Shown here piece after piece: positions 4,172 through 21,218 of a stretch of DNA of 27,592 bases. This DNA comes from a virus. Every line of letters starts with the position of its first letter. The first letter of the stretch is position 1. The position numbers and the translations under genes are program-made. A model generated the notes under the pieces. It was not told the DNA's origin and searched no databases. It was given only the letters and a program-made list of their open reading frames with translations. The DNA lies in IMG/VR virus record IMGVR_UViG_3300042197_003465, positions 1-27,592 of that record; one strand, given 5' to 3'.

Positions 4172-4200
4172 AAAACCCACTCTAATTGAGTGGGTTTTTT
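4172..4200. terminator. Bidirectional intrinsic terminator between dnaK and the 4199-5449 gene
   Basis: AAAAACCCACTC (4172-4183) pairs with GAGTGGGTTTTT (4189-4200) around a five-base loop, giving a 12-bp stem flanked by A and T runs. It serves dnaK on the plus strand and the convergent minus-strand gene, whose stop codon (4199-4201) overlaps its edge. Confidence 0.9.
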
Positions 4201-5449
4201 ACCATGTTTCATCATCTTCTGGTTCAATTTCATTATAAGTGCCATTAGTATTCTGAAGATATTTATTGGCTTCTATATCTGGAATCCTATTTGATAGCTC
4301 TCCGGTGTATGAGTTCAAATACATCAAAGAATCTAAATAAGGATATTTTTCTAAATTCCAATGTTGTAAATCAACTATCAATATAGGATTACGTTCTAAT
4401 TCTGTGGCCTTAACAATTGTAAAACTATCACCGGAATTTTGATTTAACTTGAACCACCAACCATTTTTCTCAGCAAACTTTTTGAACAAATCTACATCAG
4501 AGTCAAGTGTTGTATAAATTCTATCCATGAATTTACGACCATCTCTACAAGTCCAGAGTAATGCTCTTCCTGTAATTGTGTCTGAAATTAATTTTCCATT
4601 TTGAACTTTACCTTTTTCAGAATATAAAATTACTAGCTGACAAACATCAGTGTTCTTACTGTATAAATTCAAATATTCATTAGGTACTTCTGACATACAA
4701 GAATTAGCTAAAGTTCCTTTATTTCTTACTTCATAATTTTCTTTACTATACCAATGAAGAATATCAGTGTCTTTTACGATGTCAAATCTTGAAAAGGCAT
4801 CTTTTAAAACATTTACCGTAGATTTGTATTGATTTACAAATTTCTCTATTTCAGCATCTGATGATTGAATTTTTGAAGCATTTAAAATTGCTTTTATTAC
4901 TCTACCTATTTTTATTTTATTCCTGTGTGATGTCCAAATTCTATCAAAAGTATCATCAGTGGATTCCAGAGCGTCAATATTTAGAATTGTCCTTCTTCCA
5001 ATTTCACCTTCTTTAGTGCATTCAAATAATACATATGTTCTTCCATTGGTGCCAATTGTTTTTCCTAAAATTTTACCAATAACTCCTGTTTCTGGTTGAT
5101 ACACAGTATCAGTTCTTTCATGATTAAGTCTATCATAGATATGTTGGTTAGATTTTGATCCGGTAAGATATTTACCAGAATTAACAACTTTATATAACTC
5201 TTCTTTATTTGCAATTACTTCTTGAACTTTTCTTTCTGGTGTAAATGATACTGTATCATTTTCTTCGGTTGAATCTATGTAATTATATTGAACATCAACT
5301 TCGTTTCCCTGAAGATCCAAAATTTTTTTTGATAAAGGTGAGTTAATATTCATTAATAAATTAGAAAAACTCTTTGATAAACTTATTTTCGCTTCAAAGA
5401 GTTTTTCTAATTTTTTTTCTAAAATATATTCAGAATAATTTATCATCAT
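4199..5449 (-). CDS. Conserved phage-type protein of unknown function
   Basis: A 416-residue protein with no family I can name firmly. It has a compact, conserved-looking core: GTLANSCM (245-252), VCQLVILYSEKGK (269-281), GRALLWTCRDGRKFMDRIYT (294-313), a D-x-D pair, and GWWFK (330-334). This arrangement recalls uncharacterised proteins of large T4-like phages (memory of the pattern, not a search). No signal peptide or membrane segment is present. The tail is acidic (EPEDDETW). The N-terminus MMINYSEYILEKK resembles the MK-x-F-x-x-F-x-E leader seen on the cassette at 14421-21218, with I-L-E where T4 prohead protease would cut. A TTAATATATA stretch lies upstream. It is convergent with dnaK. 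Confidence 0.8.
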   Translation of the reverse strand: MMINYSEYILEKKLEKLFEAKISLSKSFSNLLMNINSPLSKKILDLQGNEVDVQYNYIDSTEENDTVSFTPERKVQEVIANKEELYKVVNSGKYLTGSKSNQHIYDRLNHERTDTVYQPETGVIGKILGKTIGTNGRTYVLFECTKEGEIGRRTILNIDALESTDDTFDRIWTSHRNKIKIGRVIKAILNASKIQSSDAEIEKFVNQYKSTVNVLKDAFSRFDIVKDTDILHWYSKENYEVRNKGTLANSCMSEVPNEYLNLYSKNTDVCQLVILYSEKGKVQNGKLISDTITGRALLWTCRDGRKFMDRIYTTLDSDVDLFKKFAEKNGWWFKLNQNSGDSFTIVKATELERNPILIVDLQHWNLEKYPYLDSLMYLNSYTGELSNRIPDIEANKYLQNTNGTYNEIEPEDDETW

Positions 5450-6407: not shown

Positions 6408-6899
6408 ATGAAAAAAACAAAAAAACAGGTTACTTTAGAACATCAAGAAAATTCTAATCAAAATGTAGAAACTTTAGTACAAGAAAAATCCGAAGAAGTC
6501 ATTTTATCAGAGCAACTTCAAGAATCAAAAGATAAGTATCTACGATTATATGCTGAATTTGAAAATTATAAAAGAAGAGTTCAAAAAGAAAAAGAAGATT
6601 TGATTTTGAATACAAAAACTTCTATGTTGAATTCCATTCTAGATCTTGATAATGACTTATACATTGCAAAAAAATCAATCGGTGATTCTGAGGGATTAAC
6701 AATAATTTTGAGTAAAGTTCATAATTTTTTGAAGTCTAAAGGAATTGATGAAATACAAACACTGACATATGATGAAGACTTGCACGAAGTGATTTCAGTT
6801 TTAGAAACAGGTGAGACTAAAATTATAGACGTAGTTTCAAAAGGATACTCCATAAACGGAAAACCTTTTAGATTTCCAAAAATTGTTTTATCAAAATAA
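6408..6899 (+). CDS. grpE: GrpE nucleotide-exchange factor
   Basis: A 163-residue GrpE, the dimeric factor that releases ADP from DnaK. A charged, disordered N-terminus (1-35) leads into the long paired helix KDKYLRLYAEFENYKRRVQKE (41-61), which carries the family hallmark AEFENYKRR. A region with LDLDNDL (78-84) follows, then the beta-wing domain with the hallmark H-E-V (126-128), in place of the usual HEA, and GYSINGKPFRFPKIVLSK (146-163). The length is slightly below most bacterial GrpE proteins. It is next to a gene of unknown function on each side and shares the run with dnaJ. Together with dnaK at 2271 it completes a phage Hsp70 system. Confidence 0.92.
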   Translation: MKKTKKQVTLEHQENSNQNVETLVQEKSEEVILSEQLQESKDKYLRLYAEFENYKRRVQKEKEDLILNTKTSMLNSILDLDNDLYIAKKSIGDSEGLTIILSKVHNFLKSKGIDEIQTLTYDEDLHEVISVLETGETKIIDVVSKGYSINGKPFRFPKIVLSK

Positions 6900-7464: not shown

Positions 7465-8517
7465 ATGGCAAAAGACTATTACAAAATACTTGAAGTTGAC
7501 AGAGCGGCTACTCAAGAAGAAATAAAAAAGGCTTACAGAAAACAAGCTATGCGATATCATCCTGATAAAAATGGAGGAGATCAACAATCAGAGGAAAAAT
7601 TCAAAGAATGCGCCGAAGCATTTGATATACTTTCTGATCCTCAGAAAAAACAACAGTATGATACTTATGGTGAAGTAGGTGATAGAGGAAATCCATTTTC
7701 TGGTGGATTTGGTGGATTTGGTATGGACGATATATTCTCAAGATTTGGAGATATATTTGGATTCGGAGGTGGAAGCTCTCAAAGGCAAACACGCCGTGGT
7801 AATGATCTTCGTATGACATTAAAAATATCTTTGAATGATATAATTAATGGTATTTCTAAAACTATAAAATATAATAGAAACATTAAGTGTAAACCTTGTG
7901 ATGGTCAAGGTGGAACAGACTTCACAAATTGTGGTTCTTGTAGCGGAACTGGACAAAGAAGAATAGTACAACAAACACCTTTTGGTAATATTCAACAAGT
8001 TATGCCATGTAACTATTGTGAAGGTAGAGGAAAAGTTCAAAGAAATACTTGTAATACTTGTAGAGGACAAGGAACTATTCCAAATGAAGAAAGTTTGGAT
8101 CTAAATGTTCCAAAAGGTGCAATAGGTGGAATTTCTTTCGCAATGCAAGAAAAGGGAAATTGGATCAAATCTGGTAGCCCTGGTGATTTAGTAATAATAA
8201 TTGATGAAGAACCCAATGTTCAGTTTAAAAGAGATGGTATAAATCTTACATTTGATAATAATATAACCGTTATAGAAGCAATACTGGGTAAAGAACAAAC
8301 TTTAGACACACCACATGGTAAAATAAAGTTCAATATACAACCTGGTACTCAACATGGAAATATAATTAGAATTCAAGGCAAGGGTATTCCAGATATTCAA
8401 CGTAACGGATTTATGGGTGACTTATTGATAAAAATTGCAATTAAGATTCCTTCTTTAATTTCTAATGAAGAAAAAATGATTCTTGAAGATCTAAAAAATT
8501 CAGAAAATTTTAATTAG
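7465..8517 (+). CDS. dnaJ: Hsp40 co-chaperone DnaJ
   Basis: A 350-residue class A J-protein. J domain 1-70 with the essential HPD at 32-34. A Gly/Phe region (75-105) includes DIFSRFGDIFGFGGG. The zinc-binding domain has four CxxCxGxG repeats: C142/C145, C156/C159, C182/C185, C196/C199. C-terminal substrate-binding domains follow (LDLNVPKGAIGG, PGDLVIII, DTPHGKIKFNIQPGTQHG, GDLLIKI). It is somewhat shorter than the usual 370-380 residues, with a trimmed C-terminus. It stimulates DnaK ATPase and delivers substrates. It is last in the run starting at 5921. Its TAG overlaps the stop codon of the convergent glycosyltransferase gene by three bases, and its terminator lies inside that gene. Confidence 0.95.
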   Translation: MAKDYYKILEVDRAATQEEIKKAYRKQAMRYHPDKNGGDQQSEEKFKECAEAFDILSDPQKKQQYDTYGEVGDRGNPFSGGFGGFGMDDIFSRFGDIFGFGGGSSQRQTRRGNDLRMTLKISLNDIINGISKTIKYNRNIKCKPCDGQGGTDFTNCGSCSGTGQRRIVQQTPFGNIQQVMPCNYCEGRGKVQRNTCNTCRGQGTIPNEESLDLNVPKGAIGGISFAMQEKGNWIKSGSPGDLVIIIDEEPNVQFKRDGINLTFDNNITVIEAILGKEQTLDTPHGKIKFNIQPGTQHGNIIRIQGKGIPDIQRNGFMGDLLIKIAIKIPSLISNEEKMILEDLKNSENFN

Positions 8518-9655: not shown

Positions 9656-11470
9656 TTAATTTTTTAGTATGAATATCCACTTTTTCGAGCCACAGTCAAA
9701 AATTCTATAAATATTCCTCTCATGCATTATCTCTACTTCAGTCTTATCTGGTGAAAATCCTAATTTTACAAGATTACTTTTTCTAAAATTAAATCTATGT
9801 TTCTTTATGCCATCAATTACCCAGTAATAATTTATTTCAGTTTCGGATTGTAAACTAAAACCTAATTTTTGATACATTTCGCCTATTCCTCTTGAATTAT
9901 CGGAAAAACTTATTACTTCTTGTGGTGAATAATTTTCTAAAAAGTATTTAAACATTTTACTTGAACCACCAACTACTATAGTATTTAATTTATTACAAAA
10001 TCTTAACAATTCCCAACTTCCAACTTTTGAATTATATCCAACAGATTTCCTTAGACTACCAAAGGTCATCAAACTTACAAGATTATTGTTATAGAATAAT
10101 CCGATTTTTATTTTAGATGGAACAACACCTTGTATATGATTATTTTCTAAAAAGTCATTTACTAATTTATTATCAGTTATTTCCCTTATTTGACATTTTC
10201 TAGCCCAGATTTTTTCTGATCTTTTTAGCTTGTTCAGAATCATAGATTGTACTATTGATCTTTTAAAATCCCAATCATCTTCCCAAATGTGAATCAGTTG
10301 TATTTCTTTTTTTAAACATTCTTTTGTTTTATTCTGATGATACCACTTATCTTTATACAATTCAGAGTGCCAATACAGGCAGTTAAATTCAAATGCCAAT
10401 TTTAAATCTGGTAGGTAGATATCAAGCTCACCATTTATAACAGATTGTGTATTAGTTACGATTTCGCCGTGGTAATTATCTGAAATAAATTTTAAAATTT
10501 CAAGTTCTCGTCTTGACTTACCAGATAAACTTGGATTACAAATCAAACAGATTTCTTGTTTTGACTGCTTTCTAAAAACAAATAATTGTCTGTTAATTGA
10601 AAAAACATTATTACATGTGGTACAGGAAAACTCTAAAATAGAATCTGTATTATTTTCATTAGATTTTTTATCTAAATAAATCAAATTATCCGGTAATTCT
10701 GTTTTTATTTTTTGAATAATATTTGATTTATAAGACTGAACTCTTTTCTGAATAACTTCTGGACTTTTGAAATGATGTTCTACACCCCAATTATCAAAAC
10801 TAACTTTCTTTATAGCTTCTAATCTATACTGAATAAAGTTTTCATATGTGCCAAAGTTTTCAGATATTGTATTAATCCTTTTCTTATTAATTTCATCTTT
10901 TTCATCTTTAGATTTATTTAATAATGTTTGTCTTCTTGATTGAATAATAGTCAATTTTTCCGCATTATTTTCCCAAGTTATTTTACTTTTTTCTTTTAGT
11001 TCATCGGATTGTTGTGACCACTCAACACCCCATTTATTAATCATCGTTTTCTTGAATTTATCTTGTACCACTTTTGATTTCATATAATGGTCACCCCATT
11101 TATTTTTGATATTTTCTTTTTCTTTTTCAATGATCTGTGATGACTTTTTTGGATTATCTACTCCGAACTTCTCAACACAAGTTTCTTTTCTTTTTTTAAC
11201 ATAACAATCTTTTTCACCACAAGTAGTTCTATATCCATTTTTAAAACCTATAAATTTTTTGTGATTTCCACAATCACATAGCTGCAGAGTGGACAGTTCA
11301 TTTACCCAATAATAAATCTTTTCAGATATTTGAAAATCTTTTATTTCTTTTGGAATGCCATTATTAATAAGTTCTAAGTACTGAATATTATTCGAGTTTT
11401 TTAAAAAAATACACAATGATCCTATATTTCTGTTAGCCATTTCTATTATTAACTCCTTCATAGATTTCAC
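9656..11470 (-). CDS. Hef/MobE-like homing endonuclease with Vsr-like nuclease domain
   Basis: A 604-residue, modular free-standing homing endonuclease. A first zinc site is formed by C65, C67, C84 and C89. Repeats of the EKFGVDNPKKSSQI or NKWGVEWSQQS type run from about 98 to 250, as in other phage homing enzymes. A second Cys4 knuckle is at C283/C286 and C308/C311. The nuclease core follows: GELDIYLPDLKLAFEFN (347-363, with E348, D350, E361), YWHSE (H368), and IQLIHIWEDDW (H394, E397), the Vsr/EDxHD-like pattern. The C-terminal 175 residues (about 425-604) form a GNAT-like module (GSWELLRFCNKLNTIVVGGSSK) often attached to such enzymes. The start has an upstream TATATATATAA stretch. It sits beside two GIY-YIG endonucleases. 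Confidence 0.82.
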   Translation of the reverse strand: MKSMKELIIEMANRNIGSLCIFLKNSNNIQYLELINNGIPKEIKDFQISEKIYYWVNELSTLQLCDCGNHKKFIGFKNGYRTTCGEKDCYVKKRKETCVEKFGVDNPKKSSQIIEKEKENIKNKWGDHYMKSKVVQDKFKKTMINKWGVEWSQQSDELKEKSKITWENNAEKLTIIQSRRQTLLNKSKDEKDEINKKRINTISENFGTYENFIQYRLEAIKKVSFDNWGVEHHFKSPEVIQKRVQSYKSNIIQKIKTELPDNLIYLDKKSNENNTDSILEFSCTTCNNVFSINRQLFVFRKQSKQEICLICNPSLSGKSRRELEILKFISDNYHGEIVTNTQSVINGELDIYLPDLKLAFEFNCLYWHSELYKDKWYHQNKTKECLKKEIQLIHIWEDDWDFKRSIVQSMILNKLKRSEKIWARKCQIREITDNKLVNDFLENNHIQGVVPSKIKIGLFYNNNLVSLMTFGSLRKSVGYNSKVGSWELLRFCNKLNTIVVGGSSKMFKYFLENYSPQEVISFSDNSRGIGEMYQKLGFSLQSETEINYYWVIDGIKKHRFNFRKSNLVKLGFSPDKTEVEIMHERNIYRIFDCGSKKWIFILKN

Positions 11471-11536: not shown

Positions 11537-12649
11537 ATGGAAAAGTATTATGTTTATTGTTTTTTAGATCCGAGAAAACCAGGTCAATATGTTTGGGAAG
11601 ATTTGCATTTTGAATTTGAACCATTCTATATAGGCAAAGGTAGTGGTTCAAGATTGAGGGCACATTTTTATCCTTCAAATCTAAAGATAAAGAATACTAA
11701 AAACAATAAAATAAAAAGTATCATATCCAAAAATAAATATCCAATTATTAGAATAATAGAAGAAAATCTTAATGAGCAACAAGCATATGATATAGAAGAA
11801 TCATTAGTGGTCAAAATTGGAAGATCAAATATTAAATCAGGTCCACTTTGTAATTTAACAGATGGTGGTAAAGGTGCTATAAATCTTAAAATACCAAAAA
11901 AAAGAAAACCTACTTATCAGTTTTCTTTAGATGGTGTTTTATTAAAGAGATACGAGTCTCTTTCAGAAGCCGCTCAGATTAACAATCTTCACCTTTCAGA
12001 CATTTCTAAATGTTGTAGGAATCAAGCAAAAACACATGGTGGGTTCTATTGGTCATTCAAAGATACAAATAATATTTTTACAAGAAATAAAAAAAATAGA
12101 AAGATACTACATTATGATTACGATGGTAATCAAATAAATGAGTATGAGAGTATAACACATGCTGCTAATTCAAACGGAATAAAATTTTCTACAGTTAGTC
12201 GAATTTGCAAAGGTGAAATTTTACAATACAGGGGAACATATTTTAGATATTATGATCAAGATTTTGAATTACGCGGAAAAAAAATTAGATATAGAGAAGT
12301 GTTGAAAATAACAAATGAAGGTATAGTAGAATTCAAATCTGTTAAAGAAGCAAGTATAAAACTAAATATTTCTACGAAGTCTGTCATTTCAAGATGTAAA
12401 AATAAGAACTTATTTGATGATTTATACCTTATTTATAAAGATGATTATTCAAATGGAATAAGAAAAGATTTTCAAAAAAAAGGAAACGGCGAAAAAAGAA
12501 TAAAAAGAATCTCTATTGATAATTCTGATATAGTTGAGTACGAATCAATTCTAAAAGCATGTGCAGAGGAAAAAATATCAAGATCATATCTCTCGAGATT
12601 GTTAAAAAACAAAAAATTATACAAGAATAATTTGTTCACCTATTGTTGA
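11537..12649 (+). CDS. GIY-YIG homing endonuclease with NUMOD1-like repeats
   Basis: A 370-residue protein. The GIY-YIG nuclease occupies about 1-110: YVY (5-7), YIGKG (31-35), the catalytic arginine R39 in SGSRLRAH, a glutamate at 88/89 in YDIEESLV, and CNLTDGGKG (105-113). The spacing between the two halves is longer than usual because of an insert PRKPGQYVWEDLHFEFE. Four NUMOD1-like DNA-binding repeats follow, each with a Q/D-x-D-G-x-x-x-x-Y-E-S-x-x-x-A-A-x-x-N core (about 126-175, 190-240, 255-300, 325-370). It does not interrupt a visible gene; it lies between the Vsr-like endonuclease (divergent) and a virion-type gene. Confidence 0.87.
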   Translation: MEKYYVYCFLDPRKPGQYVWEDLHFEFEPFYIGKGSGSRLRAHFYPSNLKIKNTKNNKIKSIISKNKYPIIRIIEENLNEQQAYDIEESLVVKIGRSNIKSGPLCNLTDGGKGAINLKIPKKRKPTYQFSLDGVLLKRYESLSEAAQINNLHLSDISKCCRNQAKTHGGFYWSFKDTNNIFTRNKKNRKILHYDYDGNQINEYESITHAANSNGIKFSTVSRICKGEILQYRGTYFRYYDQDFELRGKKIRYREVLKITNEGIVEFKSVKEASIKLNISTKSVISRCKNKNLFDDLYLIYKDDYSNGIRKDFQKKGNGEKRIKRISIDNSDIVEYESILKACAEEKISRSYLSRLLKNKKLYKNNLFTYC

Positions 12650-12679: not shown

Positions 12680-13468
12680 ATGAGCAATCTCAATAATTAC
12701 GAGCCTTACAACGATGGATATACAATAGAAGAGTTAATTGACTTCGTGCAAAATGAAATCACTGTTGGTTGTGCGTTACCAAAAACACTTCCAGATTCTG
12801 AAATAAGGAGGATTATTGAAACTAGAGCACTGCCGTGGTTTTATAGAAATTATCAATATGCGGTTCAAAAAATGTATTTTCTAATTCAAAAAGAAGCTTT
12901 TCAAACTGAGGAATTTACTAAATATCGTTATGTTACGGTTCCTTGTGAGATTCAATCTGTATCCTACTTATACGAAGTAAGATCCCAAAGCTTATTACAA
13001 CTTGGAATTAATACACCGAATCTATCTGTAAATTTAGGTGTTACAAATCAACCTTATTTATCATCATATGTTACCACAATTGGTGAGTTGGGTGTTTATA
13101 AAACTGTGTTAGATTCTATGTCGGATATGTTAAACCAATTGAATAAATTCACCTTAAAATATCATTATAATCAACTTCAACATAGATTGCAAATTTTAAC
13201 AAATGTGAAATATGATGTAATTATTGAAGGATATGCAAATATTAGACCTGAGTATCTTTTTAAGGAAGATTTGTTTGTTAAGTATGTTACTGGTTGGTCT
13301 AAAGTGCAATATGGAAATTTAACTGGACGTTATGATTTCACCCTCCCCGGTTCGATTAAGATAAACGCGGCAGACATTACCACACAAGGAAAAGAAGAAA
13401 TTAAAGAAGTCGAAGAAGAAATAAAAGGTCAATCGAACTCAGGATTTTTCTATCTTGTGAAACGCTGA
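12680..13468 (+). CDS. Probable virion (neck or connector type) protein
   Basis: A 262-residue soluble protein. The N-terminus has a helical segment, TIEELIDFVQNEI (14-26), then LPDSEIRRIIETRALPWFYRNYQ (about 37-59), a pattern I associate with structural proteins of large myoviruses. A beta-rich middle (YVTVPCEIQSVSYLYEV) and an aromatic-rich second helical segment (YHYNQLQHRLQIL) follow. The end is glutamate/lysine-rich before GFFYLVKR. No enzymatic motif is seen. It is flanked on both sides by GIY-YIG endonuclease genes, which fits the habit of such elements of sitting next to conserved virion genes. The virion role is inferred, not shown; the leader is A-rich with no Shine-Dalgarno. Confidence 0.6.
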   Translation: MSNLNNYEPYNDGYTIEELIDFVQNEITVGCALPKTLPDSEIRRIIETRALPWFYRNYQYAVQKMYFLIQKEAFQTEEFTKYRYVTVPCEIQSVSYLYEVRSQSLLQLGINTPNLSVNLGVTNQPYLSSYVTTIGELGVYKTVLDSMSDMLNQLNKFTLKYHYNQLQHRLQILTNVKYDVIIEGYANIRPEYLFKEDLFVKYVTGWSKVQYGNLTGRYDFTLPGSIKINAADITTQGKEEIKEVEEEIKGQSNSGFFYLVKR

Positions 13469-13473
13469 CTTGA

Positions 13474-13539
13474 ATGGGCACTTTTAATATGTTACTAGGT
13501 GGAGTTAAGTTTTTTATATATAGAATATGGATACAATAA
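13474..13539 (+). pseudogene. Possible start of a gene cut off by the GIY-YIG insertion
   Basis: ATG at 13474, six bases after the stop of the virion-type gene, opens a 21-codon frame, MGTFNMLLGGVKFF and so on, that runs into the next endonuclease gene and stops. The first dozen codons look like ordinary coding sequence, unlike the A/T leader that follows. It may be the 5' end of the next structural gene, stranded when the endonuclease gene inserted. This is weak evidence from a short peptide. Confidence 0.2.
13514..13522 (+). promoter_or_regulatory. TTATATATA box before the second GIY-YIG gene
   Basis: TTATATATA-GAAT-ATGG, the same layout as before the GIY-YIG gene at 11537. Confidence 0.4.
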
Positions 13540-14417
13540 AATATACTATTTATAAACTAATAGACCCAACAGACAACAGAATCAGATACATAGGACTCAC
13601 TTTTAATGACTTAAAGACAAGATTAAAGTCACATATTTCAGAGCCTGGGAGTTCTCACAAAATTAATTGGATTAAAAAAATTAAAAAAATTGGATTAAAA
13701 CCAATAATTGAATCAGTTGAAGAAGATATTTCTACATACGAGACTGCTTGTGAAAGAGAAATACACTTCATAGATTATTTTAAATCGTTAGGTTGTGATT
13801 TGACAAACATGGCATCTGGTGGTAATAAGAACAGAAAAATGTCAGATGAAACCAGAAAAAAAATGTCTGAAGGTCAAAAAGAAAGATATAAACATTTCAA
13901 ATTAATACATTCAGAAGATACAAAGAAGAAAATAAGTAATTCAACTAAAGAGAGATTTCAAGACTCAAATGAAAGAAAAAAGCTAAGAATTTCTAACAAG
14001 AAATACGAAGACTCCAAGAGCTCAGAACAAAAGTTGAAAGATATTTTGATACAAGATTCCAAAAAAATTTATCAATATGATCATTTGATGAATTTGATAA
14101 GAATTTATCCCTCTATTCGAGATGTTGAGAGAAAAATTAATTTGAAAAGATCTAATATATCCAAATGTTGTAAACATATCGTCACATTTGTTGGTGGGTA
14201 TGTTTGGAGATTTGAAGGTGATTTAACTCCACCAAAATATAAGAATAGAAAAGAAGTGATACAATATGATATGAATCTTAATATTGTATCAGAATTTGAA
14301 AACATCAGAAAAGCAAGTTTAGAGACAAAAGTTAATGATGCACGAATCAGATGTTGTTGTAAAGGTAAATACAAAACAGCAGGTGGATTTATTTGGAAAT
14401 ATAAAGATAATATATAA
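13527..14417 (+). CDS. GIY-YIG homing endonuclease with NUMOD3 and NUMOD1 modules
   Basis: A 296-residue protein. The GIY-YIG nuclease occupies about 1-98: YTIYKL (6-11), RYIGLT (20-25), R32 in TRLKSHI, glutamates E76/E78 in ACEREIHFIDYF, and NMASGGN. Two NUMOD3-type basic helices follow, MSDETRKKMSEGQKERY (105-121) and HSEDTKKKISNSTKERF (128-144), then two NUMOD1-like repeats (about 172-225 and 237-296), each ending GG-Y/F-V/I-W-R/K. It is not a copy of the 11537 enzyme: the nuclease lacks the long insert and only this one has NUMOD3. It ends three bases before the next start codon; that gene's upstream AT box overlaps the end of this coding sequence. Confidence 0.88.
   Translation: MDTIKYTIYKLIDPTDNRIRYIGLTFNDLKTRLKSHISEPGSSHKINWIKKIKKIGLKPIIESVEEDISTYETACEREIHFIDYFKSLGCDLTNMASGGNKNRKMSDETRKKMSEGQKERYKHFKLIHSEDTKKKISNSTKERFQDSNERKKLRISNKKYEDSKSSEQKLKDILIQDSKKIYQYDHLMNLIRIYPSIRDVERKINLKRSNISKCCKHIVTFVGGYVWRFEGDLTPPKYKNRKEVIQYDMNLNIVSEFENIRKASLETKVNDARIRCCCKGKYKTAGGFIWKYKDNI
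14408..14416 (+). promoter_or_regulatory. TAATATATA box before the 14421 gene
   Basis: The 13 bases AAGATAATATATA (14404-14416) recur exactly at 16038-16050. In both places the box contains the stop region of the preceding gene (D-N-I-stop) and lies 4-6 bases before the next start. Confidence 0.4.
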
Positions 14418-14420
14418 GAA

Positions 14421-15809
14421 GTGAAATACCTCAAAGACTATAAAATATTCGAAGAATCAGAAGAATTATTGGATTCATTCAATAAGAATGAAATTGAGTC
14501 TATTATTCAATACTTAGAAACAAAAATGTATGATCTAAAAGATGATGATTACCAAGCAGAAGTTAATAAACAATATTATCAACCAGGTCGTTATTATACT
14601 GCATCTATCCACATAAAAAGTGGTGATAATCAAGTTTTGAATTCAAATCTGTGTGAAACTGTTAAATCAATTTTAGATTATATGGAAAGTATGGATTATG
14701 AATTGCACGCGGGTCATTCAAATAAAATGATGTTACACATACCCGATAAAGATAGGCATAGTTTTGAAAACTACCTTAAAGTTTCAATTGATGACTTAAA
14801 AGATTTGGCTGAAAAAAATACTCCTTTTAAATCATTGATTTGTCATTTTGATCCAATGAATGTTTATTGGGATGATATACATAGAGGAAAATTAAAAGAT
14901 GAATATAAAAAATTTGAAGAACTTGATATAGACATTGATTCGGCATCTGGTCAAAAGATGTTAGAAGAAATATCTAATATCTTTATACATGTTAAAGATT
15001 GTGGATTAGAAGTTGTAGAAGTTTATTCTGGAACTGCCCTAGGACTTGGTGATAAAGATATTGTGACTGATCATAATCAATTTTTAACAGTAATCGGTAA
15101 AAATGGTAGGTGGGAAGATAGTTTTAAAAGTTTATCACTTAGAATGAGAATGGTGCGGGATAATGAATCAGAAAGACTGCAATTTTATATTGATAATGAA
15201 CTTTTTGGTGAATTACAAGACGCGATTAGTCGTATGGAAGTGGCATATAATTTAAAATTAAGTAGTATTTTCTTAACTAAAGGTTCTGGTATTTGGACTA
15301 AAAGTGTAAGTGTGATGAAAAATTATATTGAATCACTGCCGTTTGCGCAAAAAAGTTCTTTAAGGTGGTGCACTTATATGGATATTACATTTAAGGATTT
15401 GAATGAAGATATTGATGATTCTGTTACAGTTAATGAGTCAAGTGATGTTGAACAATTGGAAAAACTGCAATTAGTTTTTGGAAAAGTTCGAGCAGTAATT
15501 AGAGATTTTGCTGAAGATAATGACATTGAGTATGAAATAGATTTTGGTACTTATCATAAATTGTATGAAAAAGAAGATTCGGTTGTATTTGATTCAATTA
15601 ACATTGATATTTGGGATGATAAATATAATTTTTTCATACCGAATGATCTTCTCCTACCAGCTATTAAAACCTTAAAATCTATGTTATTAGAACATGATCT
15701 GAATATAGATATTGAAATGATTGCTGATAATGACTTTTATGGTGTTGATGAATTTTTTGAGGAGTATGGTAGTGAAGAAATACATGATTTGGGAATAATA
15801 ATTTACTAA
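14421..15809 (+). CDS. Unknown protein with capsid-targeting-like N-terminus
   Basis: A 462-residue acidic protein with a GTG start; GTG is the only start that keeps the leader MKYLKDYKIFEES. That leader matches neighbours (MKYLKKFEAVS, MRIKNFKTFESS, MKKVKSFKTFES) and has I-F-E, the (L/I)-x-E form cut by T4 prohead protease. The body seems built from related alpha-beta units: SIIQYLETKMYDLKDDDYQ near 27-45, and DLLLPAIKTLKSMLLEHDLNIDIEM near 411-435. Each unit has strands of alternating I/D residues typical of small ferredoxin-like folds. There is no catalytic motif, membrane segment or signal peptide. It heads the tagged cassette, five bases before the next gene. Function unknown; an internal head protein is a hypothesis. 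Confidence 0.75.
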   Translation: MKYLKDYKIFEESEELLDSFNKNEIESIIQYLETKMYDLKDDDYQAEVNKQYYQPGRYYTASIHIKSGDNQVLNSNLCETVKSILDYMESMDYELHAGHSNKMMLHIPDKDRHSFENYLKVSIDDLKDLAEKNTPFKSLICHFDPMNVYWDDIHRGKLKDEYKKFEELDIDIDSASGQKMLEEISNIFIHVKDCGLEVVEVYSGTALGLGDKDIVTDHNQFLTVIGKNGRWEDSFKSLSLRMRMVRDNESERLQFYIDNELFGELQDAISRMEVAYNLKLSSIFLTKGSGIWTKSVSVMKNYIESLPFAQKSSLRWCTYMDITFKDLNEDIDDSVTVNESSDVEQLEKLQLVFGKVRAVIRDFAEDNDIEYEIDFGTYHKLYEKEDSVVFDSINIDIWDDKYNFFIPNDLLLPAIKTLKSMLLEHDLNIDIEMIADNDFYGVDEFFEEYGSEEIHDLGIIIY

Positions 15810-15814
15810 AAGAT

Positions 15815-16051
15815 ATGAAATACTTAAAAAAATTTGAAGCAGTGAGTGGCAAATCTATGAATAAAGTTTATGACTTGACACGTGGTCGTGGGAAAACTCC
15901 AGAGATTGAATCAGATCTAGAGCAAATGAAGGCAATTTTAAGTGATATTGAAGATTTTAGTGATGTTAAATTTTATATTACAACCTATTTTCCAAGACAT
16001 ATTGATATAATGATAAACAAAGATAATTGGTATCAAGAAGATAATATATAG
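15815..16051 (+). CDS. Small unknown protein with the same N-terminal tag
   Basis: A 78-residue protein starting MKYLKKFEAVSGKS. After the tag there is a basic stretch (TRGRGKTPEIES), one helix (DLEQMKAILSDIEDF) and a strand pair (VKFYITTYFPRHIDIMINK). That is half of an alpha-beta unit like those in the preceding 462-residue protein. It may be a free-standing single-domain member of the family or a shortened one. It starts five bases after the 14421 gene and ends five bases before the 16057 gene; ATG is preceded by the A-rich TAAAAGAT. Confidence 0.65.
   Translation: MKYLKKFEAVSGKSMNKVYDLTRGRGKTPEIESDLEQMKAILSDIEDFSDVKFYITTYFPRHIDIMINKDNWYQEDNI
16042..16050 (+). promoter_or_regulatory. TAATATATA box before the 16057 gene
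   Basis: Part of the exact 13-base repeat AAGATAATATATA also found at 14404-14416; six bases separate it from the ATG. Confidence 0.4.
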
Positions 16052-16056
16052 TTATA

Positions 16057-16764
16057 ATGAAACATCTACGACCATTTAATTTACTTAATGAAAATCATCA
16101 ATCTACAAAAGAAGTTGATTTAATTGTAGGAGTTATGCAAGATTTTTTAGATGATGATAGAAAGATATTATTTCGTTCATCAAATGGCGATATGAATTAT
16201 ACTGATTATGTTGATAAGAATAATAATTATTTGAATTTCAAACCTGTTATAAATAATGGAAAATATATTAGATCACAATTTAGTATAGTTTTTCAAGATA
16301 TTAAAGATTATAAAGATTTTTTATCAATGTTAAATGAAATGCAAGCAGCCATTGGTAGATTAAAAGATAGTGATTGGTCACTATATGATATGAAATTAGG
16401 AACATCAGCACCGCTTTCAAATCAGGGAAATGTTAATTTTTCTTTTTTAGCATTATATTTTTCTAAACCTGATCAAGAAATACAAGGTGGATCATTTGTG
16501 TATCCAACTAAAGAACAATTGGCAGAAGTTTTCAAAAGATGGGGGTTAGTTATTCAGGATTTAGATTGGATGGAAAGCAAAAGACCTAATGAACAAGAAA
16601 GTGAGTTGTGTGTAGAATTTTATACACAAGGCTATCGTGGAGAAGTTCCTAAAAATATTGAAGATTGTTTTGACCTAACTTGTGATAAGTTTGGATTCAA
16701 TTCTTATAACTATGACTTTGGTGAATTGAGAGTTTGGTTTATTTTTAACTTTAATTCCTTTTAA
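16057..16764 (+). CDS. Unknown tagged protein, 3' end fused to foreign DNA
   Basis: A 235-residue protein starting MKHLRPFNLLNEN, a variant of the cassette tag with L-N-E at the possible cut site. The body is alpha-beta with repeats of aromatic/acidic strands; DFLSMLNEMQAAIGRLKDSDWSLYDMKLG (about 88-116) resembles the helix-strand unit of the 14421 protein. No motif of known function is seen. The last residues, FIFNFNSF, are encoded antisense to the M23 peptidase fragment at 16741-16890, so the natural C-terminus was probably lost at a recombination junction near 16740 and replaced by chance sequence. Whether the protein is still functional is unclear. Confidence 0.65.
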   Translation: MKHLRPFNLLNENHQSTKEVDLIVGVMQDFLDDDRKILFRSSNGDMNYTDYVDKNNNYLNFKPVINNGKYIRSQFSIVFQDIKDYKDFLSMLNEMQAAIGRLKDSDWSLYDMKLGTSAPLSNQGNVNFSFLALYFSKPDQEIQGGSFVYPTKEQLAEVFKRWGLVIQDLDWMESKRPNEQESELCVEFYTQGYRGEVPKNIEDCFDLTCDKFGFNSYNYDFGELRVWFIFNFNSF

Positions 16765-16890
16765 AACAGGGTGATCATGTTCTCCAAAGCTACTGCTGAT
16801 AATGCCTTCGGCAACCGGCCAAGGTAGTTTAGATTTATTGGCTGCAAAACTGTTAGATAATTTTTGTGCCTCAGGAGTTTTTATGATGCT
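16741..16890 (-). pseudogene. Fragment of a Bacteroidetes-type M23 (EnvC-like) murein peptidase gene
   Basis: Read on the minus strand, this piece encodes about 50 residues: LSIIKTPEAQKLS, then SFAANKSKLPWPVAEG, IISSSFGEH, DHPVLKGIKVKN. This matches from memory the conserved entry into the M23 domain of Bacteroidetes EnvC-like proteins (TPEA-x-x-LS-x-x-F-x-x-NKG-x-LPWPV-x-x-G-x-I-x-x-x-FG-x-x-x-HPVL-x-GI-x-V-x-N). It stops exactly where the domain should continue with N-x-G-I-D-I, and it has no start and no catalytic residues beyond the first part. The stretch is visibly richer in G/C (GCCTTCGGCAACCGGCC on the plus strand) than its surroundings. It is a stranded piece of bacterial gene, overlapping the 3' end of the plus-strand gene and abutting the minus-strand gene that ends at 16890. 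Confidence 0.78.
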
Positions 16891-17207
16891 TAGTAAAAAG
16901 TATATTTACCATTATCATCGTGTATAACACAATACATTGAAATAGGATAAATCTTTGGAAATTCCCCGATATCTTCAATAATAAATCTACAAGAACCATC
17001 AATAATTTGAGAATTGGTTACTTTAACAGTGGCATTGTTTAAACCTTTAACAACTGTGTAAAAAATATCATCAAGTTCTGGTGTTACCTCAATGAAATTG
17101 TTTTTTGTAAGTAATTTACCTAAATAACCTTCTTCAAAATAAGATTTTCTAATAATATTATCTAATACTTCCACATTTGGGAACTCAAGTTTGATTTCGC
17201 TTTTCAT
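16890..17207 (-). CDS. Small unknown protein
   Basis: A 105-residue soluble protein, MKSEIKLEFPNVEVLDNI and so on, with a mixed alpha-beta pattern and a C-terminus HDDNGKYTFY. I do not recognise it. The C-terminus lies directly on the edge of the M23 gene fragment, so the stop may have been created by the same recombination. It starts 5 bases downstream of the stop of the next minus-strand gene (17213-17563), and the two probably form one transcript driven from 17569-17600. Confidence 0.6.
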   Translation of the reverse strand: MKSEIKLEFPNVEVLDNIIRKSYFEEGYLGKLLTKNNFIEVTPELDDIFYTVVKGLNNATVKVTNSQIIDGSCRFIIEDIGEFPKIYPISMYCVIHDDNGKYTFY

Positions 17208-17212
17208 AAAAA

Positions 17213-17563
17213 TTATAATTCTAAAAGATGTGAAAGTTTTATTTCTCGTTCTTTTTGAACAGTGAGTGGTGTTTTTTCTAAATTTGATACTTCAAATTTA
17301 TAAATCTTGCATTTATTATCTTTAGAACATTCACGAATTAACTGTATTTCAAATTTACATTGCCAGTATTTATCTTTAGAAAAATAAATCACTTCTTTTA
17401 AATCAATATTCTTAATATCAAAGTCTGCGGGAAATTTTATTTTTATACTATGAAATGTAATATTTGACCAATGAGTATTTAGTTGATTTTTAGAAATCGG
17501 ACCACAATATTCAAAAGATTTAATTACATCAAAGAATGCAGTATTTGTAAATTTTATTTTCAT
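17213..17563 (-). CDS. Small unknown protein
   Basis: A 116-residue protein starting MKIKFTNTAFFDVIKSFEY. The frame is open to 17599, but the ATG at 17561-17563 is preferred: the extra residues (MYIFNFLFIFVN) would be encoded within the promoter and have no counterpart in style. The body is beta-rich with WQCKFEIQLIRECSKDNKCKIYKFEV (about 74-99), in which two cysteines flank a turn. No known motif. A good Bacteroidetes-type promoter ends a few bases before the ATG, so this is probably the first gene of a two-gene unit with 16890-17207. Confidence 0.65.
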   Translation of the reverse strand: MKIKFTNTAFFDVIKSFEYCGPISKNQLNTHWSNITFHSIKIKFPADFDIKNIDLKEVIYFSKDKYWQCKFEIQLIRECSKDNKCKIYKFEVSNLEKTPLTVQKEREIKLSHLLEL

Positions 17564-17568
17564 ATTGA

Positions 17569-17600
17569 CAAATATAAATAAAAAATTAAATATATACAAA
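17569..17600 (-). promoter_or_regulatory. Bacteroidetes-type promoter TTTG-N20-TATATTTG
   Basis: On the minus strand TTTG (17597-17600) and TATATTTG (17569-17576) are separated by 20 bases, matching the Bacteroidetes consensus TTTG-N19/21-TAnnTTTG. The start codon at 17563 lies five bases beyond the -7 box, so the message would be leaderless or nearly so. Confidence 0.5.
17573..17580 (+). promoter_or_regulatory. TATAAATA, T4 late-promoter-like box
   Basis: An exact match to the T4 late promoter element TATAAATA, 21 bases before the ATG of the 17602 gene, in the divergent leader. In DNA this AT-rich it could be chance. AAATATATA (17588-17596), five bases before the ATG, is another candidate. 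Confidence 0.3.
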
Positions 17601-17601
17601 T

Positions 17602-18138
17602 ATGAAAATTATAGGATGTAGAATAAATTTCGGAAGCAAAAGGGAACTTTTTGAACTTTTACCAGCTACCATAGTTAGGATTATTGAATCTAACACGGAT
17701 CAAAATTTTGACTTTAAAATTCAAGTCAATGTGAATGGTAGAAATACCTCGGTTATTAAGTCATTTGGACCGGATTTTATTGGCCAAACAGATTTCGAAG
17801 TGCTACGAGGACAAACACTACCAATATTAGGTAATAGAAGCACAATTCATAAATTCGCAAAATTTAATGATAATGGAACTATAGATATTTTAGATCAAAT
17901 TCAAAATGAAGGCGCACTTCCCAGAGAATCAACTGTTAAACAATTGCAGAAAATCAGACAAGCAACTAAATCAACTACAATAGATGATAGAATTCCTAAA
18001 TTAAAAGGTGCAAATTTATCACATGAAAGAAATGTTGTTGATTCTGGTATTGAATCTTATGAAGATTTCCAAAAGAAAAACAAATCTTTTATACCTGGTT
18101 GGAATCTTAAACATCTAACTTCGCCTTATAGGAAGTAA
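17602..18138 (+). CDS. Unknown protein
   Basis: A 178-residue protein. The first 100 residues are beta-rich (KIQVNVNGRNTSVIKSFGPDFIGQTDFEVLRGQTLPILGN), suggestive of a compact barrel. The rest is basic and helical, ending WNLKHLTSPYRK. It lacks the cassette tag, a signal peptide or any enzymatic motif. It is divergent from the small minus-strand genes. It is convergent with the membrane protein gene at 18139-18483, with the two stop codons directly abutting inside a near-palindrome (GGAAGTAATTATTTCC, 18132-18147). I do not recognise it. Confidence 0.7.
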   Translation: MKIIGCRINFGSKRELFELLPATIVRIIESNTDQNFDFKIQVNVNGRNTSVIKSFGPDFIGQTDFEVLRGQTLPILGNRSTIHKFAKFNDNGTIDILDQIQNEGALPRESTVKQLQKIRQATKSTTIDDRIPKLKGANLSHERNVVDSGIESYEDFQKKNKSFIPGWNLKHLTSPYRK

Positions 18139-18483
18139 TTATTTCCAGAAAGCTTGGATAAAAACAATTGTTAAACACAAAACTAAGCAAAGTATATTCT
18201 TGGTGTTTAATTGTTCATTAAGAAAATAATGATTTAGTGCCCAGAAAACTACAATACCCATTACAAATTGTATTATTCTAAGTGACCAAGAATTTCCAAA
18301 TCCTTCAACTCCTAATCTAGTTGAGAAATAATACATTAAGGTAATTGGTATTCCAGATAGAGCAACTAAAAGTATATTTGTTTTGAAAAAATCCCATTTG
18401 AATTGTCCAAACATTTGAAACCAAGTTAGGAGTTGGGCTAAAAATAATATTAAAATACACGAAATAATTTTATATAAATTCAC
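18139..18483 (-). CDS. Four-helix integral membrane protein, GTG start
   Basis: A 114-residue hydrophobic protein with four predicted membrane spans at about 4-24, 35-53, 68-87 and 94-112. Short polar loops lie between (FGQFKWDFFKTN, STRLGVEGFGNSWSLR, LNEQLNTKN). The size, four spans and the LNEQLNTKNILCLVLCL entry to the last helix recall small drug/metabolite-transporter-like proteins, but the conserved membrane glutamate of EmrE is absent, so that is only a resemblance. The start is GTG at 18481-18483; no ATG is in frame upstream. The repeated promoter-like element (18494-18518) lies 11 bases before it. It would be placed in the host inner membrane; its role is unknown. Confidence 0.7.
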   Translation of the reverse strand: MNLYKIISCILILFLAQLLTWFQMFGQFKWDFFKTNILLVALSGIPITLMYYFSTRLGVEGFGNSWSLRIIQFVMGIVVFWALNHYFLNEQLNTKNILCLVLCLTIVFIQAFWK

Positions 18484-18493
18484 TTTTATTGTA

Positions 18494-18518
18494 GTTATTT
18501 TTAATAAATAGTTTATAT
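18494..18518 (-). promoter_or_regulatory. Repeated promoter-like element, copy 2
   Basis: Minus strand ATATAAACTATTT followed by ATTAAAAATAAC, one base longer than the copy at 5757-5784 and otherwise identical over the core. It lies between the GTG of the membrane protein gene and the divergent ATG at 18517. Confidence 0.5.
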
Positions 18519-19059
18519 GTTAAAAAGATACAAAGATTTTGTGAAGAATAGGAGTCAATATCAATTCGGATGTGTTTTAGTTGATTATAATTTTTCTAAT
18601 TGGCAACAATTTTTAGAAGAAATACTCAAAATACAAGATGATGATGTGTATGAAGTTGAAGGTCAAAATTACGGCATTGAGCCAAGGCCACACTTAACCT
18701 TATTATATGGACTTCACCAAGAAGTTTCAAACGAACAAGTGCAATCTTGTTTTACGGGATTCAATATTGATGATTTTAAAGTGCATATAAATGGCATTGA
18801 TATTTTTGAAAATGAGCAATATGATGTTATAAAATTAAATGTTGTTAAAACTCAAAAACTTGAGGAAATTCATCAAAGATTAACAAAACTTCCGAATTCT
18901 GATAAATATCCACAATATAATCCACATATAACTTGTGCTTATGTAAAAAGTGGATTAGGTAAAAAATATATACATGGTGATTATAAACACGAAATACAAA
19001 ACATTAATAAAATTGTTTATACAAGACCGAATAAATCAGAATATATTATAAATCTATGA
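18517..19059 (+). CDS. 2H phosphoesterase (LigT/2'-5' RNA ligase-like), tagged N-terminus
   Basis: A 180-residue protein with the two catalytic H-x-T motifs of the 2H superfamily in hydrophobic strands: H59-L-T61 in RPHLTLLYG and H137-I-T139 in NPHITCAYV, 78 residues apart, as expected. Members cut or ligate 2'-5' bonds, open 2',3'-cyclic phosphates, or (phage Acb1) destroy cyclic oligonucleotide alarm signals of CBASS. The first residues MLKRYKDFVKNRSQ resemble the tag of neighbouring genes, although the possible cut-site glutamate is missing. Its stop overlaps the next ATG (ATGA), so four genes to 21218 are probably translationally coupled. An RNA-repair partnership with RnlA or anti-defence activity are both possible; fold assignment is solid, substrate is not. 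Confidence 0.85.
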   Translation: MLKRYKDFVKNRSQYQFGCVLVDYNFSNWQQFLEEILKIQDDDVYEVEGQNYGIEPRPHLTLLYGLHQEVSNEQVQSCFTGFNIDDFKVHINGIDIFENEQYDVIKLNVVKTQKLEEIHQRLTKLPNSDKYPQYNPHITCAYVKSGLGKKYIHGDYKHEIQNINKIVYTRPNKSEYIINL

Positions 19060-19946
19060 AGGTAAAAAACTATTCTAAATTCCTTGAAAACCAATCACAA
19101 GAATTTTCTATTTACGATTTTTACAATTATTGTGGAGATGTAGCTTGGCATAATGTAAAACTTGATGAAGGTGAATTAAAATCTCATATAGAACATTTTA
19201 TTGGCACAGGCACATGGGATATAATTAATTCACACTTTACAAAAATATTTAATGTTTTACAATCGGTTAATATGGATTTCATAGACGCTAGAATGTATGA
19301 TATATTTGATGAATATTTAAATCACGACGTTAAATATGCAGTAAGATGTGTAGCTTATGGTGATTTTGATAGATGGGATGCAGAACCTGAACGCAGGTAT
19401 AATGGTATGATGTCAGTTAGAACGCCTGATAATCAATCTAAGCTTAGCAATATATCAAGTTTTATAAGAACATTGCTTTATCCGTGTCTTTTTTTAAGTG
19501 ATTTTAAATCTAAAAGTTTAAGTCTTCGTACTACACCAGATGAAATATATGTTAATTCAGATGAGTTTAGTATTAAGAATTTACCAAATACTAAATTACA
19601 AATTGAAGATAATTTTGAGAAAACTTGGTCATTTTCAAAATATTTGCAGTTTGCAAAGGATTTTTCACTTGAAAGATGTTTATCTGTTTCAAAATATTTG
19701 CAGTTTGCAAAGGATTTTTCACTTGAAAGATGTTTATCTGTATATAAGCCAGGTATTTTTATTAATATATCTTCAGATAAATATATGGGATCTAAAATGT
19801 CTTATAATAAAATTATAGGTGAATTTGAAGAACTTTTACCTGCTATTACGGGTGATTTAGATGTTGAAGTTATATGTATGGATAAAAAAAGACCACAAGA
19901 TATGGAAATTTATGATTTTGATGTAAAAATAATTTTGTCTATATGA
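19056..19946 (+). CDS. Unknown tagged protein with an internal tandem duplication
   Basis: A 296-residue protein starting MKVKNYSKFLENQSQ, with the cassette tag and F-L-E at the possible cut site. I do not recognise the body, which is alpha-beta with aromatic strands (YAVRCVAYGDFDRWDAEPERR). Eighteen residues, SKYLQFAKDFSLERCLSV, occur twice in direct succession near 193-230 because of an exact 54-bp DNA repeat (19633-19741). The duplication keeps the frame. ATG overlaps the previous stop, and its own TGA overlaps the next ATG. Confidence 0.72.
   Translation: MKVKNYSKFLENQSQEFSIYDFYNYCGDVAWHNVKLDEGELKSHIEHFIGTGTWDIINSHFTKIFNVLQSVNMDFIDARMYDIFDEYLNHDVKYAVRCVAYGDFDRWDAEPERRYNGMMSVRTPDNQSKLSNISSFIRTLLYPCLFLSDFKSKSLSLRTTPDEIYVNSDEFSIKNLPNTKLQIEDNFEKTWSFSKYLQFAKDFSLERCLSVSKYLQFAKDFSLERCLSVYKPGIFINISSDKYMGSKMSYNKIIGEFEELLPAITGDLDVEVICMDKKRPQDMEIYDFDVKIILSI
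19633..19741 (+). repeat. Exact 54-bp tandem duplication, two copies
   Basis: The 54-base unit at 19633-19686 is repeated base for base at 19687-19740, and position 19741 continues the match by one base. Absence of any substitution implies a very recent event or active maintenance (or an assembly artefact). It adds exactly 18 codons to the 19056 gene. Confidence 0.97.
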
Positions 19947-20632
19947 GAATTAAAAATTTCAAAACATTTGAATCAAGTTCTAAAAATTGGGGAGATATGG
20001 CTAAAAATCTTCTTTCTGGATATTCTAATATTTTAAAACAGAGTAATGATTTGCAATCACAAATTGAACAAGTTAAAGTATTGATTATTGATCTGTCGGA
20101 TATATCAGATCAAACAATATTGGAAGAACAAATGTTTGTTAAAGTGTCTGATAAAGTCAAGACTTCAATTGAAAAAGTTACAGATTCTTGGTCAAATAAA
20201 CAATGGGATCAAATAACTACTGATAAAGATGTTTTTCATACTGTTAAAAAATTAGGTTTATCAAATCATTACTTTGAGCGAGATGCTTACATAAAATATC
20301 TACAAATAAACTCATTTATGAAATTGGCTCAAAACTTTAACAAGATGTGGTTTGGTATTGATATTATATTCAGAAATTGCCAAGGTGGTCATTCACTTGA
20401 TTTTGGAAAATTTTCGGATGATGATCGAATCAAAAGAAATGAAATACTTGAAATATTTAACGAAATAAAATTAGGATTACAATCCAGAGGTTGGTCAATA
20501 AATATGCGTGGATGGGGAGATGATTATATTTTTGATGCCGTTGGTGGATTCAGTTTTGATATAATTAAAGAAGTTGATCCAACTGAAGCTAATGTTTGGT
20601 ATAAAAATAATTTTCAAGATGAAAAAGGTTAA
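19943..20632 (+). CDS. Unknown tagged protein
   Basis: A 229-residue protein starting MRIKNFKTFESSSKNW. The tag is nearly identical, also at DNA level (TTTCAAAACATTTGAATCAA), to that of the next gene (MKKVKSFKTFESK). A helical, coiled-coil-like segment (about 27-60, NILKQSNDLQSQIEQVKVLI) follows, then a mixed region with GLQSRGWSINMRGWGDDYIFDAVGGFSFDI near the end. No recognised domain. It is joined to its neighbours by an ATGA overlap upstream and a 14-base overlap downstream. Confidence 0.72.
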   Translation: MRIKNFKTFESSSKNWGDMAKNLLSGYSNILKQSNDLQSQIEQVKVLIIDLSDISDQTILEEQMFVKVSDKVKTSIEKVTDSWSNKQWDQITTDKDVFHTVKKLGLSNHYFERDAYIKYLQINSFMKLAQNFNKMWFGIDIIFRNCQGGHSLDFGKFSDDDRIKRNEILEIFNEIKLGLQSRGWSINMRGWGDDYIFDAVGGFSFDIIKEVDPTEANVWYKNNFQDEKG

Positions 20633-21218
20633 AAGTTTCAAAACATTTGAATCAAAATATCAAATATCTACTGAATTTCCAGATTTTGAAGTAGTTAAGG
20701 GTTGTTTCTATGAATTTACTGATGAAATAGGAACTTCTATACAAGATTATGATTTGGGTTATATTTTTTTTCCTTCACCTGCTAATCACCGTATATTTTC
20801 AAATTTAAATATTGATATTTTGAATACTGATTTAAGTAATGGTCAATTAGACTATCGTTCTGAACAAATACAATTCAATCATGCTGGTAGAAAAACACAT
20901 CAGAACCGACTTAAATTAATTGAATCTGGTGAAGAACCAGGATATCCATTTTATTATATACAGTTGGAAAATCATCTTTTTGAAAAAAATAAACTACCAA
21001 TTTTAATTGATTGTTTGAAAACTATGTATTTACAAACAGGATTTAGATTAATAAAAAGTTTATGGACAGAAGATTATGTCGATGATGTTTCTGGTGAAGT
21101 AGTGCAATTTTATGGATTTGAAGGAACATTCGTAAAAGTATCAGATCCGGAATATAAAAAACTTTGCCAAATATTTCAACAAGGAGGATCAAGTCCTCTT
21201 TTGACTAAACTTTTTTAA
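20619..21218 (+). CDS. Unknown tagged protein
   Basis: A 199-residue protein. The frame is open from 20574, but ATG 20619 is chosen because it gives the leader MKKVKSFKTFESKYQ, matching the preceding protein, whereas the upstream extension is antisense-free overlap with that gene. The body contains DIGLGYIFFPSP-like beta strands (QDYDLGYIFFPSPANHR), a helix PILIDCLKTMYLQTGFRLI and an aromatic tail. It ends SSPLLTKLF over a hairpin (21181-21202) before gp32. Function unknown; last member of the coupled set 18517-21218. Confidence 0.72.
   Translation: MKKVKSFKTFESKYQISTEFPDFEVVKGCFYEFTDEIGTSIQDYDLGYIFFPSPANHRIFSNLNIDILNTDLSNGQLDYRSEQIQFNHAGRKTHQNRLKLIESGEEPGYPFYYIQLENHLFEKNKLPILIDCLKTMYLQTGFRLIKSLWTEDYVDDVSGEVVQFYGFEGTFVKVSDPEYKKLCQIFQQGGSSPLLTKLF
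21181..21202 (+). terminator. Possible terminator overlapping the end of the 20619 gene
   Basis: AAGGAGGA (21181-21188) pairs with TCCTCTTT (21194-21201), with one G-T pair, around the loop TCAAG, and a short T-run is part of the 3' arm. It lies 16 bases before the stop codon and would separate the cassette from gp32. Confidence 0.4.

Follow-up and report, generated by a model that had tools for sequence, protein, structure and literature searches.

In the viral DNA analysed here (IMG/VR record IMGVR_UViG_3300042197_003465, positions 1 to 27,592; this whole 27.6-kb stretch is called the window throughout), a number of otherwise dissimilar genes begin with a common short leader, which most probably (at about 0.83, in our estimation) is a capsid-targeting, or prohead-core-targeting, sequence of the phage T4 type, hugely expanded in number and mimicking a repeat of the head scaffold. 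The nearest relatives of the window in the annotated collection are LR756502, LR745206 and LR756504 (634-642 kb), and its gp32-type single-stranded DNA-binding protein (SSB), DnaK and DnaJ all have close homologues in LR756502; going by its sequence, the window is a piece of a megaphage of the mahaphage type, a clade with genomes above 634 kb and Bacteroidetes as predicted hosts (PMC7162821). A preliminary description of the window had reported such leaders on seven plus-strand genes (starting at 14421, 15815, 16057, 18517, 19056, 19943 and 20619) and on one minus-strand gene (4199-5449). All eight are present, with identical starts chosen by an independent gene model, and a further tagged gene, an RNA ligase at 977-2182, had been overlooked.

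The comparison set comprised LR756502 (642 kb, 902 genes), the IMG/VR contigs G002 (597 kb) and, in part, G005, the genome LR756501 (735 kb), as well as 67 loci around the SSB gene. Gene starts in the compared genomes are the calls of our own self-trained model, which replaced a Shine-Dalgarno-based rule that failed here because the start contexts are A-rich. A motif model of the leader was learned from the N-termini of LR756502, and proteins scoring at least 8 were regarded as tagged. By this measure 164 of the 902 LR756502 genes (~18%) bear the tag, as compared to 2.7 for shuffled N-termini, a ~60-fold enrichment, and 2.5 for internal windows; the same model tags 35 of 813 genes in G002 (~4%) and 13 of 177 in G005, and 61 genes of LR756501 match a T4-type regular expression (4.2 after shuffling). 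A core motif, [FYW]xx[FY][ILVM]xE, stands at 28 N-termini in LR756502 (1.8 expected), at 10 in G002 (1.4 expected) and at 57 in LR756501 (1.3 expected). Within the window, five of the 27 genes reach the threshold (977, 14421, 15815, 16057 and 19943; 0.07 for shuffled N-termini), and the leaders of 18517, 19056 and 20619 are backed by orthologues with full tags. Tagged genes are spread genome-wide, and the single cassette of the preliminary description is therefore too narrow a notion.

The tag is attached to bodies which have little in common. The 164 tagged proteins of LR756502 fall into 150 body groups (134 singletons) with no detectable similarity between groups, and the tagged bodies take in unrelated known folds (2H esterase, RNA ligase, lysozyme, GNAT, HNH). 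Codon usage within the LR756502 tag is near that of the genome, and codons vary while residues are kept. Most tags of this phage are of a distinct form, either MKHLKxYKIFE or MKHLKKYNE, each followed by S. Bodies of the 18517 type carry differing tags, mostly MIIKNYIQFIKE followed by S and similar ones, in locus L028 MRNIIKYNLFE followed by S; the 2H enzyme of the Maribacter phage Colly_1 has none, and neither do the RNA ligases of G002 and LR756501. A seemingly untagged state of the 18517 orthologues in loci L001, L030, L043 and L045 was discarded, these being miscalled starts with the tag found in-frame upstream. In AlphaFold models the leader lies outside the confidently folded body with a predicted local distance difference test (pLDDT) score below 50 (residues 1-14 in 18517 and 1-15 in 19056).

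Judged by its residues, the leader has the layout of the T4 capsid-targeting sequence: aromatic-x-x-aromatic for targeting, then (I/L)-x-E as the predicted cleavage site. In the T4 IPIII leader, residues 4 and 7 (Y and F) direct targeting, and residues 8 and 10 (I and E) are required for cutting (PMC9026906). In the family of 19056, whose members share 26-33% identity with the window protein, Y6 and F9 are invariant at the T4 spacing; in that of 18517, F8 is invariant and Y5 is kept in at least 90%. The leader is about 10-19 residues long and N-terminal on all these unrelated bodies. A hydrophobic-x-E triplet ends 129 of the 164 LR756502 tags (69.9 after shuffling), and the following residue (P1') is S in 40% of them (background 8%). 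The preliminary description had placed a cleavage triplet at the leader end; among the window copies, 18517 (ending in FVKN) and 15815 lack it. As a positive control, the T4-type regular expression picks IPII, IPIII and gp61.1 from the 250 genes of T4. Gene 61.1 itself (AF158101, 18966-19130) encodes a hypothetical protein beginning MKTFKEFIKED, a capsid-targeting-like leader.

The search for a gp21-like prohead protease, suggested along with the first account of the leaders, was successful in the relatives, where the gene lies within a T4-like head gene block. In LR756502 portal (222545), S77 protease domain (225272) and capsid protein (227452) follow each other as T4 genes 20-21-22-23 do, and the protease open reading frame (ORF) of 699 amino acids runs on into a scaffold-like part with 14-residue repeats of the type NLDKNISYSEYIAE. 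In the relatives, the gp21-type (S77) protease is fused to a scaffold with 9-14 tandem repeats of the YSEYIAE type. More than two internal copies of the core motif are found solely in the protease-scaffold protein in LR756502 (11 copies) and G002 (9), mostly at 14-residue spacing, and the same fusion in LR756501 contains 14. By sequence, then, the tag resembles the repeated scaffold sequence, which suggests how the cargo might be loaded; the window leader at 4199, INYSEYILE, is almost exactly a scaffold repeat, and three tagged relatives of this protein in LR756502 begin MNIKKYDDYISE, MVKKYFEFINE and MKINNYIDFISES. The N-terminal stretch INE/NAY of the capsid protein is conserved and fits the same cut after E. 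LR756501 also encodes a 207-residue protein (619760-620383) with three scaffold-type repeats (YAEYLAEQ, YQEYIAEQ and YSEYVAEH), which may be a core protein with internal tags.

Scaffold repeats and tag battery occur together in the three genomes scanned whole (LR756502, G002 and LR756501), and both are missing in PA5oct, a T4-like jumbo phage with virion proteins annotated by mass spectrometry, where neither was found and which therefore serves as a negative control only. This coincidence fits a capsid-targeting model, in a small sample of three genomes plus PA5oct. In a 40-kb region of Lak-C1 the protease lacks YSEYIAE repeats and no clear battery was seen; the system is thus not universal in the clade.

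Further evidence comes from fused cargoes. Searching longer ORFs for the mature bodies of tagged proteins, we obtained 43 junctions from about a dozen families, partly non-independent, in which the residue preceding the body (P1) is E in 23 of the 43 (3.5 expected); a full site lies no more than one residue from the junction in 18 (3.6 expected). The clearest case is ELPEFNE/AAKVEKTSKK in locus L044, with 96% identity to a separate protein, MKHLRKFNE/AAKVEKTSKK, and in loci L024 and L047 whole internal tags precede SLPRQ. The window may hold two such proteins. That of 14421-15809 (plus strand, start codon GTG) begins MKYLKDYKIFE, followed after the predicted cut by E, and from its sequence appears to be a fusion of two cargoes, the second beginning after DEYKKFE near residue 166; its internal junction was compared with MKHIKTYNSFKLNE in locus L017, which continues with ELDIDID after the putative cut. 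The protein at 17602-18138 (plus strand) carries, according to alignment and junction test, QNE/GALPR at the position of the internal tags before SLPRQ in L024 and L047, and its C-terminal domain, after this QNE, is a separate tagged protein in relatives, for example MKILKYLDFINE followed by SLPRQ. 2H esterases fused to a 3'-5' exonuclease-like domain occur in loci L025 (7266-8558) and L028 (4323-5615), with the junction K(V/L)NE/N.

The tagged genes also share a promoter-like element with the head genes. In LR756502, ATATATA lies at most 80 nucleotides upstream of 48 of the 49 tagged operon leaders as compared to 107 of 296 others (p=6e-18), and in LR756501 it precedes all 26 tagged operon leaders. 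The fitted element, TTAATATATA, mostly stands 2-7 or about 19-26 nucleotides ahead of the start codon; copies are also found upstream of the portal, protease-scaffold, capsid, gp25 and terminase genes, and the element is weak or missing before gp43, gp61, gp47, gp32 and one nrdA. In the window it lies upstream of 977 (as AATATATA, 21 nucleotides before the start), 4199, 14421, 16057 and 17602, and was not found upstream of DnaK, DnaJ, GrpE and gp32. This distribution is consistent with late expression coupled to that of the head. The T4 late-promoter consensus, TATAAATA, showed no enrichment, the actual element being AATATATA. This often ends a few nucleotides before the start codon (LR756502 upstream regions; 14407, 16041 and 5464 in the window); should it serve as a -10 box, late mRNAs would often be leaderless or almost so.

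A set of 150 tagged proteins matched 20 Pfam families and 32 PHROGs, and a length-matched set of 150 untagged ones matched 82 and 120, respectively. The untagged set includes tRNA synthetases, thymidylate synthase, a Clp-type AAA protein, SmpB, NAD synthase and RNase H; the few known domains of the tagged set are GNAT acetyltransferases, lysozyme, Rnl1-type RNA ligase, 2H/Acb1-like esterase, SET and HNH, with one Toprim/primase-like match and the HNH proteins as possible exceptions to non-cytoplasmic cargo. An occurrence of the leader on many clearly cytoplasmic enzymes, which would have spoken against packaging, was looked for in these sets and not found, recognisable metabolic and replication enzymes being mostly in the untagged one. 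PADLOC matches of tagged proteins were all weak and have been left aside.

Among the cargoes, 18517 (18517-19059, plus strand, leader MLKRYKDFVKN) is, on profile and model evidence, a 2H phosphoesterase and predicted to be Acb1-like. It matches PF13563 (2.4e-11), which scores higher than the Acb1 family PF23474 (3.9e-6, 27.1 bits with a cut-off of 27), and both HxT motifs (H59/T61 and H137/T139) are invariant. Its AlphaFold model (pLDDT 88.6) finds as top PDB folds a phosphodiesterase of phage BCSR5 and Acb1 (7t26/7t27), with ~17-18% identity in the structural match. Enzymes of the Acb1 type counter the cyclic-oligonucleotide-based antiphage signalling system (CBASS), and Rnl1 counters tRNA cleavage of the PrrC type. 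The RNA ligase at 977-2182 (plus strand) is of the T4 Rnl1 type (PF09511, 3.8e-20) with the tag MKYLKRYT (score 14.9); its untagged homologues begin MVQFLPTYEECLE and MNKYYIPTYREC. The injected anti-defence battery originally proposed is therefore only partly supported: these two cargoes fit it, and most bodies are unknown proteins.

Taken together, the S77 protease, the scaffold repeats, the common promoter-like element and the enrichment support what the preliminary description had supposed, namely that the leader targets the capsid as in T4 and is cut by a gp21-like protease. Each tag would imitate, via its aromatic-x-x-aromatic face, one repeat of the coiled prohead-core scaffold; tagged proteins would therefore co-assemble with the scaffold and become enclosed as the shell forms. 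The scaffold-fused S77 protease may then cut scaffold repeats, capsid precursor and tags alike after hydrophobic-x-E, which would free the cargo within the head for delivery with the DNA. From this we infer that the cargo is physically packaged, cleaved and injected, and that most of it may serve host take-over or anti-defence. With odds only slightly better than even, we would go further and regard the megaphage scaffold as a general cargo-loading polymer built of the same module as the tags (on up to ~18% of genes), the core comprising the scaffold and more than 100 cargoes, some of them polyproteins cut by the head protease, so that a large ready-made proteome would be injected.

Several observations weigh against the capsid-targeting interpretation. 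The protease match is under the Pfam cut-off (E ~1e-5), its assignment being supported by genomic position, and no head protease was found in the 27.6-kb window itself. No obvious hydrophobic-x-E site is present in 35 of the 164 LR756502 tags, nor in the window genes 15815 and 18517, and the short form MKHLKKYNES holds a single aromatic residue. In LR756501 another protein, of 1,691 residues, holds seven internal motif copies. The AATATATA element also stands upstream of 27% of the untagged leaders, including those of uvsX and uvsW. Finally, LR756502 is itself the source of the training data for the motif model, which nevertheless also works on G002, G005 and the window.

The leader could also address another compartment made by the phage, such as a nucleus-like shell, a vesicle or a membrane site. 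Up to one fifth of all genes is indeed much for head cargo, and proteins are sorted into compartments in other jumbo phages (reviewed in PMC13282480); however, the motif is that of the scaffold repeats and of the mapped T4 leader, with a protease-like site at its end, tagged and head genes share the promoter-like element and clearly replicative proteins are untagged, which makes such an address improbable. Greater weight, while still unlikely, must be given to the possibility that the tags do target the core but that the cargo mainly is structural filler of an oversized head rather than injected effectors: core material may be required in a head of such size, most bodies are unknown proteins, and head assembly in T4 is influenced by IPIII (PMC9026906). 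Against this, several of the cargoes are enzymes that could plausibly act on the host, and in T4 the injected proteins Ip1-3 inhibit restriction (PMC12373910).

Two explanations dispensing with targeting altogether appear very improbable, and to a similar degree. A translation or mRNA element without any role of the peptide would agree with the A-rich starts of these genomes and the somewhat over-used AAA in the tag, but the signal is lost in composition-preserving shuffles, residues persist despite varying codons, aromatic positions are invariant, and the peptide is met again in the scaffold as well as at junctions inside fused cargoes. Some tagged genes are mutually related, as would be expected of a single paralogous family whose bodies have diverged until only the N-terminus is recognisable; yet there are 150 separate bodies with known unrelated folds among them, and the same enzyme is seen with the tag, without it or with differing tag types.

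The remaining tagged genes of the window are as follows. The minus-strand gene at 4199-5449 encodes an unknown protein whose leader, M(M)INYSEYILE, corresponds to the scaffold repeat INYSEYLAE; TTAATATATA lies 17 nucleotides upstream of the gene. The late-promoter-like element ATAATATATAAG (14407-14418, plus strand) ends 2 nucleotides before the GTG of 14421. On the same strand follow a protein of 78 residues recognised by the motif model (15815-16051; MKYLKKFEAVS, lacking an (I/L)xE triplet) and a protein with tagged orthologues (16057-16764; MKHLRPFNLLNE, N after the putative cut, score 17.1), whose element lies 4 nucleotides upstream. Three unknown cargoes, again on the plus strand, overlap slightly: 19056-19946 (MKVKNYSKFLE, then N; Y6 and F9 invariant in its family), 19943-20632 (MRIKNFKTFE, then S; score 10.4) and 20619-21218 (MKKVKSFKTFE, then S; orthologues MKYLKTYKLFE, then S). 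A fold search with the model of 19056 gave no PDB match; at ~19620-19740 this gene contains a tandem 18-residue duplication, SKYLQFAKDFSLERCLSV, which is not found in its orthologues.

Elsewhere in the window, a phage set of DnaK, GrpE-like protein and DnaJ is encoded (2271-4154, 6408-6899 and 7465-8517); homologues of its DnaK and DnaJ are present in LR756502, G002 and LR756501. GIY-YIG/NUMOD homing-endonuclease-like genes (11537-12649 and 13527-14417) flank 12680-13468, the second directly preceding the tagged operon, and two minus-strand genes (82-942 and 9656-11470) encode DUF7487 proteins with several relatives in other megaphages.

If the capsid-targeting interpretation is correct, a rule readable from sequence assigns location and likely delivery route to well over 100 genes of unknown function in some of the largest phages, and points to a large pool of candidates for injected proteins acting in anti-defence and take-over; it also offers a concrete hypothesis for leader-core recognition in T4, namely that the leader copies a scaffold repeat. 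In the literature searched, we found no account of such a tag battery in huge phages. Large phages of the phiKZ/SPN3US kind likewise pack and eject many head proteins processed by the prohead protease. Their inner-body and ejection proteins are processed at sites of their own. We know of no common short N-terminal leader of the T4 type in these head proteins, nor in DarA and Hdf of phage P1. With the anti-CBASS protein Acb1 (T4 gp57B), 18517 shares the 2H fold and both HxT motifs; unlike Acb1 it bears a packaging-type leader, and the identity in the structural match is the ~17-18% given above. Like DarA and Hdf, which are described as head-associated anti-restriction proteins (PMC12810830), the tagged proteins would be candidate anti-defence proteins tied to the head. 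The closest parallel is T4 itself, whose internal proteins IPI-IPIII and Alt have a short N-terminal capsid-targeting leader of the same layout on unrelated bodies, and whose gp21-class protease has its counterpart in the same gene order in the relatives of the window. In contrast to T4, gp22 of which has no tandem YSEYIAE repeats, the repeats here lie in a protease-scaffold fusion, most LR756502 tags are of a distinct form, and internal sites join fused cargoes. Three internal proteins are present in T4 and at least 10 across related T-even phages (PMC12373910), whereas dozens to ~164 tagged proteins are seen here. This would put the same head-loading tag on as much as one fifth of the proteins in the largest bacterial viruses known.

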